64,000 nucleotides of DNA from Lachnospiraceae bacterium (GTDB lineage: Bacteria > Bacillota > Clostridia > Lachnospirales > Lachnospiraceae). Both the position numbers and the translations under genes were made by a program. Location: assembly GCA_024684085.1 (NCBI GenBank), contig JAIKXM010000006.1, forward strand, positions 27,126-91,125, written 5' to 3'. Under the pieces are notes generated by a model. That model saw only the letters and a list, made by a program, of their open reading frames with translations, did not search any database and was not told the DNA's origin. Of the stretch, positions 15,596-22,095 are shown piece after piece (position 1 is the first letter of the stretch; every line of letters starts with the position of its first letter).

Positions 15596-15643
15596 GATGC
15601 AAAGCATCCGCGCTCGGCGCAGGAATGTCGCAAGCGACATTCT
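15596..15643. repeat. Multi-hairpin intergenic element, copy A
   Basis: GATGC-AAA-GCATC, GCGC-TCG-GCGC and GAATGTCGC-AA-GCGACATTC hairpins in immediate succession; last two recur at 20081-20115. Confidence 0.7.
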
Positions 15644-15673: not shown

Positions 15674-16264
15674 TTAATATGTTCTTCCGGTGTCTAAGAG
15701 AACCTTCCTGGCAGGTGTTACAACTAAGAGCAGCATCGCGCCGATGGTGGTGAAGATCAATTCGGGGAGCATGTAAGAACCGTTGTACAACAGGCTGTAC
15801 AGGATCGTGCTGTCGGTACTGAAGCCCTCCCATAATTCTCCGAAGCTGTGCCAGATGATTACGCCGCTTGCAAAGTGGAAGAGAAATCTGAGTGTGATGG
15901 CAACAATGGTTCCGATGATTATTCCGCCTGCTTTCTTCTCACGCAGAAATCCTGCTATTCCGAGTATCGTAAATGCTCCGATGTAATCGATGAATATGCA
16001 GGCGATCAACATGACCGGAGTGAGTCCCCAGCCGAACAGACCATCCGTGATCCCCTGTCCGAACTGGATCAGTGAGAAAGCAAACGCTGTGATGAATCCG
16101 TCTTTGATGCCCCATCTGATCGAATATACGATGATGGGCAGCATTGAAAGGGCTGTGACCGATCCGCCCCAGGGCAGCTTGAATACCCTGATGAAACTGA
16201 GTACTGTGGCAAGTGCTACCATTACCGCACCTTCTACGATCTTTCTTGTCTTTGTGTTTTGCAT
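15674..16264 (-). CDS. thiT: Energy-coupling factor thiamine transporter ThiT
   Basis: Polytopic, ends FTTIGAMLLLVV; RFLFHFASGVIIW; preceded by TPP riboswitch; AAAGGAGG RBS. Confidence 0.93.
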   Translation of the reverse strand: MQNTKTRKIVEGAVMVALATVLSFIRVFKLPWGGSVTALSMLPIIVYSIRWGIKDGFITAFAFSLIQFGQGITDGLFGWGLTPVMLIACIFIDYIGAFTILGIAGFLREKKAGGIIIGTIVAITLRFLFHFASGVIIWHSFGELWEGFSTDSTILYSLLYNGSYMLPELIFTTIGAMLLLVVTPARKVLLDTGRTY

Positions 16265-16342
16265 AAAAAATCCTCCTTTTTTTAAGCAAGGAGGGAGATT
16301 GCAGCCGAAAGGCATCCGCTATAAACGGATTTCTTTTTTTAG

Positions 16343-16420
16343 CTTCCTTACGCCGGTCTTAACCGGTTCAAGTTATGAGGGTCAGAAACTTAAGTTCCAA
16401 TCTCAGCAATTGCTCCCCTA
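16343..16420 (-). promoter_or_regulatory. TPP (THI-box) riboswitch
   Basis: Reverse complement GGGGAGC-AATT-GCTGAGA...GACCCTCATAACTTGAACCGGTTAAGACCGGCGTAAGGAAG matches THI-box consensus. Confidence 0.93.
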
Positions 16421-16473
16421 GCTTTTATTTTTTTCATATGTAAATATATACAATCTTTTTTAAGGTGTCAATT

Positions 16474-18593: not shown

Positions 18594-19913
18594 ATGAAAA
18601 AGGTTGTAAAGTTTGGCGGAAGTTCACTTGCAAGTGCCAAGCAGTTCATGAAGGTCGGAGAGATCATTAAGAGTGATTCGGCACGTAAGTACGTGGTTCC
18701 CAGTGCGCCGGGTAAGCGTGACAAGAAGGATACCAAGGTTACGGATATGCTCTATGGTTGTTATGCTCTTGCCGAGGCTGACAAGAATTATGCCAAGGAG
18801 CTTAAGGCGATCAAGGAGAGATATAACGAGATCATAAAGGGTCTTAATCTTGATATGACTCTGGACGAGGAATTCAAGGTGATCGATAAGGATTTTGCGG
18901 CTAAGGCAGGATCTGATTATGCCGCAAGTCGTGGCGAGTTCCTTAATGGTAAGATCATGGCAAAATATCTTGGTTTTGAGTTTGTTGATGCGGCCGAGGT
19001 TATCTTCTTCAAGGCAGACGGATCATTTGATGCCGAGAAGACCAATGAAGTTCTGGGCGAGAGACTTGGCAAAACTGACAATGCTGTCGTTCCCGGATTC
19101 TACGGAAGCCTTCCTGACGGAAAGGTTAAAACTTTCTCAAGAGGCGGTTCGGATATAACAGGTTCGATCGTTGCAAGAGCAGCAAGAGTTGACGTATATG
19201 AGAACTGGACAGATGTATCAGGTTTCCTTGTAGCTGATCCGAGGATCATCGATAAGCCTGCGGGAATCGAGACTATTACATATAAGGAACTTCGCGAGCT
19301 TTCATACATGGGAGCATCGGTTCTGCATGAAGATGCTATCTTCCCTGTAAGAATGGAAGGCATCCCCATCAATATCCGCAATACCAATGCACCTGAAGAT
19401 CCCGGTACATGGATCGTTGAGAGCACATGCCAGAAGTCTAAGTATACCATAACAGGTATCGCAGGTAAGAAGGGATTCTGCTCAGTCAATATTGAAAAGG
19501 CCAAGATGAATTCTGAGATAGGTTTCGGCCGTAAGGTTCTCCAGGTATTTGAGGATAACGGAATATCTTTCGAGCATATGCCTTCGGGAATCGATACAAT
19601 GACGATCTTTGTTCATCAGGATGAGTTCATGGACAAGGAGCAGCAGGTGGTCTCAGGCATTCATCGTCTCGGAAGACCTGACAGCATAGATATAGAAGCA
19701 GACCTTGCGCTTATCGCAGTTGTTGGACGCGGAATGAAGTCCACCAGAGGTACTGCCGGAAGGATATTCTCGGCACTTGCTCACGCTGAGGTCAATGTTA
19801 AGATGATCGATCAGGGCTCATCCGAGCTTAATATCATCATCGGTGTTGCCAACAATGATTTTGAGACAGCGATCAAGGCAATCTATGATATCTTCGTAAC
19901 GACAAGGATTTAG
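18594..19913 (+). CDS. Aspartate kinase
   Basis: VVKFGGSSLASAKQF; FSRGGSDITGSIVARA; two C-terminal ACT domains; RBS GGAGG before 18594. Confidence 0.97.
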   Translation: MKKVVKFGGSSLASAKQFMKVGEIIKSDSARKYVVPSAPGKRDKKDTKVTDMLYGCYALAEADKNYAKELKAIKERYNEIIKGLNLDMTLDEEFKVIDKDFAAKAGSDYAASRGEFLNGKIMAKYLGFEFVDAAEVIFFKADGSFDAEKTNEVLGERLGKTDNAVVPGFYGSLPDGKVKTFSRGGSDITGSIVARAARVDVYENWTDVSGFLVADPRIIDKPAGIETITYKELRELSYMGASVLHEDAIFPVRMEGIPINIRNTNAPEDPGTWIVESTCQKSKYTITGIAGKKGFCSVNIEKAKMNSEIGFGRKVLQVFEDNGISFEHMPSGIDTMTIFVHQDEFMDKEQQVVSGIHRLGRPDSIDIEADLALIAVVGRGMKSTRGTAGRIFSALAHAEVNVKMIDQGSSELNIIIGVANNDFETAIKAIYDIFVTTRI

Positions 19914-20024
19914 TCGTATCAGACTTCCTGCGGAGCGTCTTTGAAGTCTTAGGAGAAGATGGGCGGGTAGACGTATCTGTCAGGGCTGTTACAGATGTTG
20001 TATTATTGATATTGTATTTGCACG

Positions 20025-20052
20025 GCTTCCGGAGCGATCCGGAAGCTTTTTT
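20025..20052 (+). terminator. Rho-independent terminator after aspartate kinase
   Basis: GCTTCCGG-AGCGAT-CCGGAAGC-TTTTTT. Confidence 0.85.
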
Positions 20053-20115
20053 GTGTAATAGTTATTACACAAAAAAGCTCCGCGCTCGGCGCGAGAATGT
20101 CGCAAGCAACATTCT
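20044..20115. repeat. Multi-hairpin intergenic element, copy B
   Basis: 17-bp perfect inverted repeat AGCTTTTTTGTGTAATA-GT-TATTACACAAAAAAGCT, then CGCGC-TCG-GCGCG and AGAATGTCGCAAGCAACATTCT. Confidence 0.7.
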
Positions 20116-20257
20116 TTTTCGTAGCGCTGAGTTGCGTGCAATTTTTAAATTGTTTATACAATTTGTTATATATATGAATTATATACAGTTAATATTACGC
20201 AAACATCAAATACAACAATAAACTGTAAAAAAATATTGTTATTTTTATAAAATTGTC

Positions 20258-20286
20258 TTGACAAATTATCACACACATAGTATATT
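20258..20286 (+). promoter_or_regulatory. Consensus sigma-A promoter
   Basis: TTGACA - 17 bp - TATATT. Confidence 0.8.
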
Positions 20287-20291
20287 AGTAT

Positions 20292-20608
20292 CAACAACAG
20301 AGAAGAGAGAAAGAAATCCTACTTACTCATGTAGGTGTCTATAGATGAAGGTGTAGGCAAAATATTAAGATTAGGAGGACGGTCCACCAGAGTAGTTATC
20401 TAACTTTCAAAGCGACGTGAGATGGGGCATAAGGATGAGCGCTTAATTAAGAAGTGCGGTACGTGTGTACAGTAGATGGAAATGCCGGAGAAGACGTCAT
20501 CACAATTGAATACGGAGACAAATTTTTGAAAGAGAGGTATTAGTCCATTGGATTTATCGTCGTAGAACGGGCATTGATTATTAGATTGTAGTCGATGCCC
20601 GTTTTGTT
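20292..20608 (+). ncRNA. Candidate structured non-coding RNA (family not identified)
   Basis: Starts just after a consensus promoter, ends in a strong intrinsic terminator, no convincing ORF, several hairpins (CCTAC..GTAGG, GGACGGTCC, GCGCTT..AAGTGC). Confidence 0.6.
20566..20608 (+). terminator. Intrinsic terminator of the candidate ncRNA
   Basis: ACGGGCATTGA...TCGATGCCCGT followed by TTTGTTG. Confidence 0.8.
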
Positions 20609-20751
20609 GTGCGCAGATGTGCGTCAGATTCTGTGTCGGGTATTGCGAAAGCCTATAAAATGATATAACATTATAAATTGAATGAAAGTTAGCATTAACG
20701 CATTTGAGATATCAAAGCGACTGTAGATAAGACGTTAAGAAGGAATCGGTT

Positions 20752-22095
20752 ATGAGTGAACATTCAAGCAGACGTGAACAGAGAAGAAGAAGAAGAATGA
20801 TCACCCAGCTGGTCGCATACGGCGCTGTGGCTGTCGTATTGTTGCTGATCGGTCTGGGCGTTACTCTGTTGATCAAATATTTCAAAAACGCAGGCAATTC
20901 GGCTCCCTCGCCCGCTGCGCAGGTGGAGACTGAGACATCCTCGCAGGAATCATCATCGGATGAGTATGTATTATATATCAATGAAGAAGAGACTTCGGAG
21001 GCGGAGACGGAGACTGAGACGGAGACTGAAGAAGAGACAACAGTGGATCTGCTCGAAGAGGTCGTACGCGACTGCATTGATGATATGCCTATAGAAGACA
21101 AAGTAGCAGGCCTTTTTATAATAACACCCGAACAGCTTACGGGAGTGGATACCGTGCTTCAGGCGGGAGACGGCACAAAGGAAGCCTTGGATAAGTATCA
21201 TATCGGCGGTCTGATCTACTTCGATAAGAATATCAAGTCGGAAGAACAGCTGACGGAGATGATCACCAATACAAAGGCTTTCAGCAAGTATCCTCTGTTC
21301 ATCGCTGTTGATGAGGAGTTGGGTGATGTTGCGAGATTAAGGAAGGGACTTAATCTTGATCCGATCCAGTCGGCGGCTGATATAGGTGCTGCCAATGACG
21401 CGTCCAAGGCGTATGAAGCATATAATTCGATCGGTAAATATATGATCAAGTATGGTTTTAATCTGGACTTTGCACCGGTTTCGGATGTGCTCCTGAACGC
21501 CGATAACAAAGCGATCGGCAACAGGTCATTCGGAAGTGATGAAGCCATCGTATCTTCAATGGTAGATTCGTCGGTACGCGGACTTAAGGATGCGGGGGTA
21601 ACTGCCTGTCTTAAGCATTTCCCCGGACAGGGTGCGGTTAATTCGGATACCCACGAGGGTGTAGCGCTTCTGGACAGAAGTGAAGCTGAGATAGATTCGG
21701 TTGAGCTGAAGCCTTTCCTTGCGGGGATCGAGGCCGGAGCGGATATGATAATGGTGGGACATATGACTGTTCCTCAGATCACACAGGATAATGTATTGCC
21801 GGCTTCTCTTTCAAAGGAGATAATCACGGATCTTCTTCGTGAGAAGTATCAATATGAAGGTGTTGTGATAACGGATGCTCTTAATATGGCTGCCGTTTCC
21901 GATTATTACAGTGCGGATGAAGCAGCTATCAAAGCTTTGAAGGCCGGAGCGGATATGATACTTATGCCCGAAGATTTCGTGCTTGCATATGAGGGAGTCC
22001 TTAAGGCAGTTGACGAAGGTGTCATAAGTGAGCAGAGGATCAATGATTCGCTCGCACGCGTATACAGGATCAAGTACAGGGCTACCGTAGAGTAG
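20752..22095 (+). CDS. Glycoside hydrolase family 3 protein (beta-N-acetylhexosaminidase-like), membrane-anchored
   Basis: N-terminal TM, acidic T/E/S linker, KHFPGQGAVNSDTHEGV and VVITDALNMAAVSDYYSADEAAIKALKAGADMIL. Confidence 0.93.
   Translation: MSEHSSRREQRRRRRMITQLVAYGAVAVVLLLIGLGVTLLIKYFKNAGNSAPSPAAQVETETSSQESSSDEYVLYINEEETSEAETETETETEEETTVDLLEEVVRDCIDDMPIEDKVAGLFIITPEQLTGVDTVLQAGDGTKEALDKYHIGGLIYFDKNIKSEEQLTEMITNTKAFSKYPLFIAVDEELGDVARLRKGLNLDPIQSAADIGAANDASKAYEAYNSIGKYMIKYGFNLDFAPVSDVLLNADNKAIGNRSFGSDEAIVSSMVDSSVRGLKDAGVTACLKHFPGQGAVNSDTHEGVALLDRSEAEIDSVELKPFLAGIEAGADMIMVGHMTVPQITQDNVLPASLSKEIITDLLREKYQYEGVVITDALNMAAVSDYYSADEAAIKALKAGADMILMPEDFVLAYEGVLKAVDEGVISEQRINDSLARVYRIKYRATVE

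Follow-up and report, generated by a model that had tools for sequence, protein, structure and literature searches.

Mini-ORFs behind conserved ribosome-binding sites in a candidate family of RNA genes from Lachnospiraceae and phages

The locus studied here raises the question of what is encoded between an aspartate kinase gene and a GH3 gene, where a promoter and a terminator enclose some 300 nt lacking any annotated gene. An earlier sequence-only reading of the window, i.e., the whole 64,000-nt stretch of DNA, had proposed a self-contained, structured non-coding RNA, more probably trans-acting than a simple leader, and had recommended a search against Rfam as well as a covariation analysis in relatives. 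Our analysis points, with a confidence somewhat short of even, to a new family of RNAs in Lachnospiraceae, for which we use the name mini-ORF RNA. The locus would be an independent gene for such an RNA, acting in trans through the ribosome by means of abortive mini-ORFs.

The locus is preceded by genes for homoserine dehydrogenase and aspartate kinase and followed by a GH3 glycosidase gene (Pfam assignments). The promoter and the strong terminator recognized in the earlier reading are indeed present (Table 1), and they are not mere chance occurrences, since homologues preserve both: at least 11 of 12 promoter consensus positions are matched in 99/152 homologues, compared to 2/152 reversed controls, and the terminator stem shows changes on both sides at 14 of its 15 pairs among 40 homologues. 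The RNA is apparently strongly transcribed. From the end of the terminator (20608) to the GH3 start codon (20752) there is a gap of about 144 nt, and with downstream genes varying among homologues, the description of the unit as self-contained and separate from the next coding sequence holds. Two further elements were noted in the vicinity. Strong inverted repeats at 20024-20094, 3' of the aspartate kinase gene, could terminate transcription on both strands, and the REP-like palindromic repeat GAGAATGTYGCAAGCRACATTCT, located at 20082-20115 and again at 15610-15643, has 42 copies in the genome (backward control: 0).

Table 1. Coordinates of the features predicted for the mini-ORF RNA locus, counted from the first nucleotide of the window.
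Feature	Position	Strand	Remarks
Sigma-A type promoter TTGACA-N17-TATATT	20258..20286	+	11/12 consensus positions matched
Predicted transcript, about 316-317 nt	20293..20608	+	Delimited by promoter and terminator; start inferred from the -10 position
Copy 1, internal Shine-Dalgarno-type motif without start codon, AGGAGGACGGTCCACC	20373..20388	+	Family motif GGAGGUACRGWCCACC
Stem GACGT 20414-20418 / ACGTC 20494-20498	20414..20498	+	Minimum-energy fold; encloses the GGCAT/ATGCC, GCGC/GTGC and GTAC/GTAC stems
Stem GGCAT 20426-20430 / ATGCC 20482-20486	20426..20486	+	Helix 3; both-sided changes at 3/5 pairs
Two small stems, GCGC 20439-20442 / GTGC 20454-20457 and GTAC 20459-20462 / GTAC 20467-20470	20439..20470	+	Helices 4 and 5; compensatory changes
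Conserved motif ACAATTGAATA (ACAAYUGAAUA)	20502..20512	+	Core AAYTGAATA
Shine-Dalgarno site GAGAGGT of the mini-ORF	20532..20538	+	Followed by a conserved spacer to CCA 20545-20547
Five-codon ORF TTG GAT TTA TCG TCG TAG (M-D-L-S-S-stop)	20548..20565	+	Frame and stop conserved in homologues
Intrinsic terminator	20566..20608	+	Stem 20566-20604, then a short T-run; stem starts right behind the stop codon

The assumption of a structured RNA with several hairpins was supported by the predicted fold of the window RNA, which reaches -87 kcal/mol compared to -67.2 +/- 4.8 kcal/mol for dinucleotide shuffles (z = -4.1), and by stems covarying in relatives. In the genus alignment, several stems are preserved along with the promoter and the terminator, and its RNAalifold structure contains 12 pairs changed on both sides, exceeding all 500 shuffled or slid versions. 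As judged by eye, the GACGT/ACGTC stem becomes GACAU/AUGUC in relatives. Apart from the stems, the core AAYTGAATA was found in 56/154 homologues (reversed controls: 5), mostly 35-50 nt 5' of the mini-ORF start. As the fold of the window RNA pairs the start region of the mini-ORF in part to largely, folding could possibly regulate access to it.

The Rfam search gave no match on the RNA at the gathering cut-off, consistent with the initial view of an unannotated element outside the known families. The sole match in the window was a TPP riboswitch at 16328-16429 (minus strand, 68.2 bits), located 5' of the thiamine transporter gene Thia_YuaJ (15674-16315, minus strand). Among 20 homologous loci searched with Rfam 15, there were four matches up to an E-value of 0.5, all below the gathering score. 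A raiA-like RNA, one of two identities initially left open, received no support, as no raiA match falls on the RNA. The other, 6S RNA (RF00013), is unlikely because a full-length, sub-threshold candidate occurs elsewhere in the same genome (G000:C3:17912-18101; 32.4 bits, cut-off 46.4; the sole 6S match of the genome), while 19910-20755 gave no 6S match at E-values up to 10. Neither Rfam nor the open-licence literature yielded a description of a mini-ORF RNA.

Within the genus, the RNA was found in 15/20 genomes by DNA search, and a covariance model detected the 3' module in 18/20 genomes with one strong copy each. R1, the covariance model built for this module, was trained on UUG-start sequences only. 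Homologues occur in about a third of the sampled Lachnospiraceae genera; R1 matches 163/299 Lachnospiraceae genomes at an E-value of 0.01 and about 94 below 1e-6. A motif scan of genomes returned many diverged homologues, with the profile-confirmed ones being nearly all from Lachnospiraceae. Outside this family, R1 gave chance-level matches down to about 1e-5; the sole match below 1e-6 (E-value 3.7e-7) was judged by eye to be the 3'-terminal part of a protein-coding gene. More than one copy is present in a number of genomes (e.g., L060, L206, L207 and genome G186, with tandem or multiple copies, two pairs of which lie about 570-890 nt apart). Among cultured strains, [Clostridium] aminophilum DSM 10710 has the RNA gene (locus L126).

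Most loci of the genus adjoin aspartate kinase, GH3 or both, and some lack one of them in the flanking DNA examined. In the wider comparison, neighbours belong to many families: GH3 lies downstream in 48 cases, and 55/151 downstream genes have the opposite orientation, i.e., are convergent. Because downstream genes vary in this way, the mini-ORF RNA is, by its genomic context, an independent gene rather than a leader. An effect in trans, preferred in the earlier reading, is retained here as a proposal.

What is most conserved in this RNA is a ribosome-binding site followed by an ORF of mostly 5-7 codons ending at the terminator, and "non-coding" in the strict sense is not supported. The absence of a convincing ORF, as stated previously, applies to ORFs of normal size only, since a conserved five-codon ORF is present (Table 1). 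Reading on in frame from the pattern CCATTGGA, a stop is reached after 5-11 codons in 58/58 loci. We used R1 because this pattern had TTG fixed and was thereby unable to test the start codon. In 102 R1 matches from loci fetched after model building, a few of which had also served for training, we counted 66 ATG, 34 TTG and 1 GTG as start triplets and one chance match, and TG occupies positions 2-3 in 101/102. Among 156 distinct modules, which are related sequences and not independent events, a stop within nine codons occurs in frame 0 in 152 cases, whereas the two remaining frames have 68 and 65; the stop codon itself is TAG (71), TAA (65) or TGA (20). A fixed UG at the start and a variable stop kept in frame is, as a sequence signature, the pattern of a translated ORF. 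Its length is exactly five codons in 115/156 modules, and across homologues the terminator stem begins at or just past the stop codon. Only an acidic residue at position 2 stands out in the otherwise variable peptide; it is encoded by GAY or GAR in 108/115 five-codon ORFs with a variable third base. At codon 4, ATA is found in 45/115, with ATT and ATC almost absent. This bias suggests a constraint at the RNA level in addition to translation, for which the minigene model does not account.

Upstream of the mini-ORF, many of these RNAs carry further Shine-Dalgarno sites, in which CCR replaces the start codon. Complementarity to the anti-Shine-Dalgarno sequence extends over 8-10 contiguous nt in 54/80 internal copies, exceeding that of the terminal site. 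A single RNA can contain up to three repeats of the motif GGAGGUACRGWCCACC, for which 58 sites were found in 53/299 Lachnospiraceae genomes (backward pattern: 0). All nine sites inspected appear to be located in the same RNA type, and an mRNA regulon sharing the ribosome-site motif was rejected, as the sites inspected were of the same RNA type or chance-like. Of the loci with the start-codon version of this motif, about one in thirty has a full-length gene behind it. The ribosome-site motif AGGAGGTACAGTCCATTGGA also occurs in the viral contigs L309 (position 1559) and L320 (position 1411) without the terminator architecture, probably by chance. Some internal copies do have a start codon followed by a stop within 2-6 codons (MK, MDR, MGK, MKT, MA, MYT); such extra upstream units amount to 15 in 156 RNAs, compared to 1 and 0 in controls, and can form chains, e.g., AUG AAA UAG and AUG GAC AGG UAA in L346, L409, L414 and L419. 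In the shortest RNAs, only about 65-90 nt precede the start codon.

Scans of IMG/VR revealed a compact, conserved version of the RNA in eleven phage contigs of up to 132 kb (L293, L385-L394), a small sample of closely related members. It consists of a promoter, two modules of ribosome site and mini-ORF, and a terminator; the promoter is missing from two copies, of which one is truncated and the other divergent. R1, although trained on bacterial sequences only, recognized the phage modules with E-values of 4e-7 to 1e-3 in 83 kb and a few at about 0.1. The peptides differ (MGM, MGK, MYR, MYN), whereas start, stop and spacing stay, and in several contigs a PolC-like DNA polymerase gene lies 3' of the RNA. 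The phage versions, like the conserved architecture, the frame from start to stop and the independence from neighbouring genes, can be read directly from the sequences.

An RNA engaging the ribosome is the explanation we favour because ribosome recruitment and very early termination are conserved here, and not a protein. According to this model, the RNA would extend over roughly 150-500 nt between its near-consensus promoter and its intrinsic terminator and present the ribosome with at least one Shine-Dalgarno site. NUG and a stop usually 2-7 codons on would follow the last of these sites and, in some cases, also earlier ones, while internal copies would have CCR instead of a start codon and an often even stronger Shine-Dalgarno sequence. 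After binding, 30S subunits could initiate and then immediately terminate or abort, and the RNA would thereby, minigene-like, buffer or divert initiating ribosomes, initiator tRNA or the tRNAs of the last codons; no functional protein would be made. Transcription and translation of the mini-ORF RNA, its abundance and its effect on translation in trans are inferred. With a Shine-Dalgarno site, a start and a stop within about 2-6 codons, the locus has the make-up of natural minigenes, and in published cases this combination can titrate tRNA, depleted via peptidyl-tRNA release, or protect RNA via ribosome occupancy (PMC8708949). Several points count against the favoured model: minigene toxicity drops with length, five codons being long for a toxic effect (PMC8708949), the spacer UAYAGWCCA is conserved beyond the needs of a plain ribosome site, codon 4 has its ATA bias, and the predicted fold of the window RNA leaves little of the start region unpaired.

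The main rival, which we consider unlikely, is a base-pairing regulatory RNA for which the 5' Shine-Dalgarno copies and a ribosome at the mini-ORF would chiefly provide stability or control of decay, as described for STAB-SD or the LEE4 minigene. Such a role would be in line with covarying lineage-specific stems, the conservation of ACAAYUGAAUA outside the ribosome sites and the position of start-less Shine-Dalgarno sites 5' of the mini-ORF; LEE4 mRNA is in fact protected by a ribosome at a strong Shine-Dalgarno site before a six-codon mini-ORF (PMC8708949). However, the regions between ribosome sites are poorly conserved across genera, a shared segment pairing with targets was not found, and chains of mini-ORFs exceed what stabilization requires.

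Quite improbable is a sponge for an RNA-binding protein recognizing the ribosome-site motif, comparable to the sequestration of CsrA by CsrB. The repeated motif with GG and CC arms that could pair and a strongly conserved spacer would suit such a protein, and a closing pair in internal copies with 6-nt loops is more common than in shuffles (p = 0.002, uncorrected for relatedness). Terminal copies, in contrast, gave no support for hairpin pairing, since base changes do not favour it there, and a search for regulated mRNAs found none, the CCACC-motif sites inspected belonging to the same RNA type. A CsrA sponge in particular was rejected, as GGA motif counts are mostly close to those of dinucleotide shuffles, with no clear enrichment.

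It is very doubtful that the gene serves to make the tiny peptide, e.g., as a signal: many genera share MDSIV and MDEIV, and the acidic second codon is common, but the sequence changes freely (METSS, MDNVER, MIEPQ, MSDSTEEK and the phage peptides) while the position of the ORF is constant. A leader-peptide attenuator of the GH3 gene is highly improbable. GH3 is downstream in many species and the mini-ORF abuts the terminator, but the context is too variable for a cis leader, with many convergent or unrelated downstream genes, the terminator is about 144 nt away from GH3 in the window and the codons show no pathway-linked amino acid.

If the model of a ribosome-engaging RNA is true, a major gut bacterial family and phages would share a new class of RNA genes with initiation followed by immediate termination as conserved content, and whether dedicated RNAs buffer ribosomes or tRNAs would become a directly testable question. 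Such genes lie in a blind spot, as Rfam has no entry for the family and ORFs of only a few codons are passed over by gene callers. A broader version, which we regard as rather unlikely, would be a class of trans-acting RNAs governing translation globally via decoy ribosome sites and abortive 2-7-codon ORFs, as ribosome counterpart of what 6S is for RNA polymerase, in Lachnospiraceae and phages presumably infecting them or their relatives. Judged by the negative results in Rfam and the open-licence literature, the architecture is new as a gene class, with the minigene as an already known ingredient.

Among known systems, 6S RNA is of a similar size class, independent and structured, and has its separate candidate in this genome. 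Dual-function small RNAs (SR1/SR1P, SgrS/SgrT) likewise combine a regulatory-size RNA with a small ORF; their ORFs encode proteins of tens of residues, whereas those of the mini-ORF RNA mostly comprise 2-7 codons of changing sequence. STAB-SD elements stabilize protein-coding mRNAs, unlike copy 1, which is part of a mini-ORF RNA. As described in PMC3997798 with reference to Agaisse and Lereclus (1996), STAB-SD is, like copy 1, a 5' Shine-Dalgarno site without start codon. A strong Shine-Dalgarno site followed by an ORF of 2-6 codons is shared with the lambda bar minigene (work cited in PMC8012679) and the natural minigenes axe-txe mg2, LEE4 and ycbK. The latter three, however, act in cis before another gene (PMC8708949), whereas the mini-ORF RNA would have a dedicated gene, retained across Lachnospiraceae and equipped with a promoter and a terminator of its own, whose entire product is the minigene.
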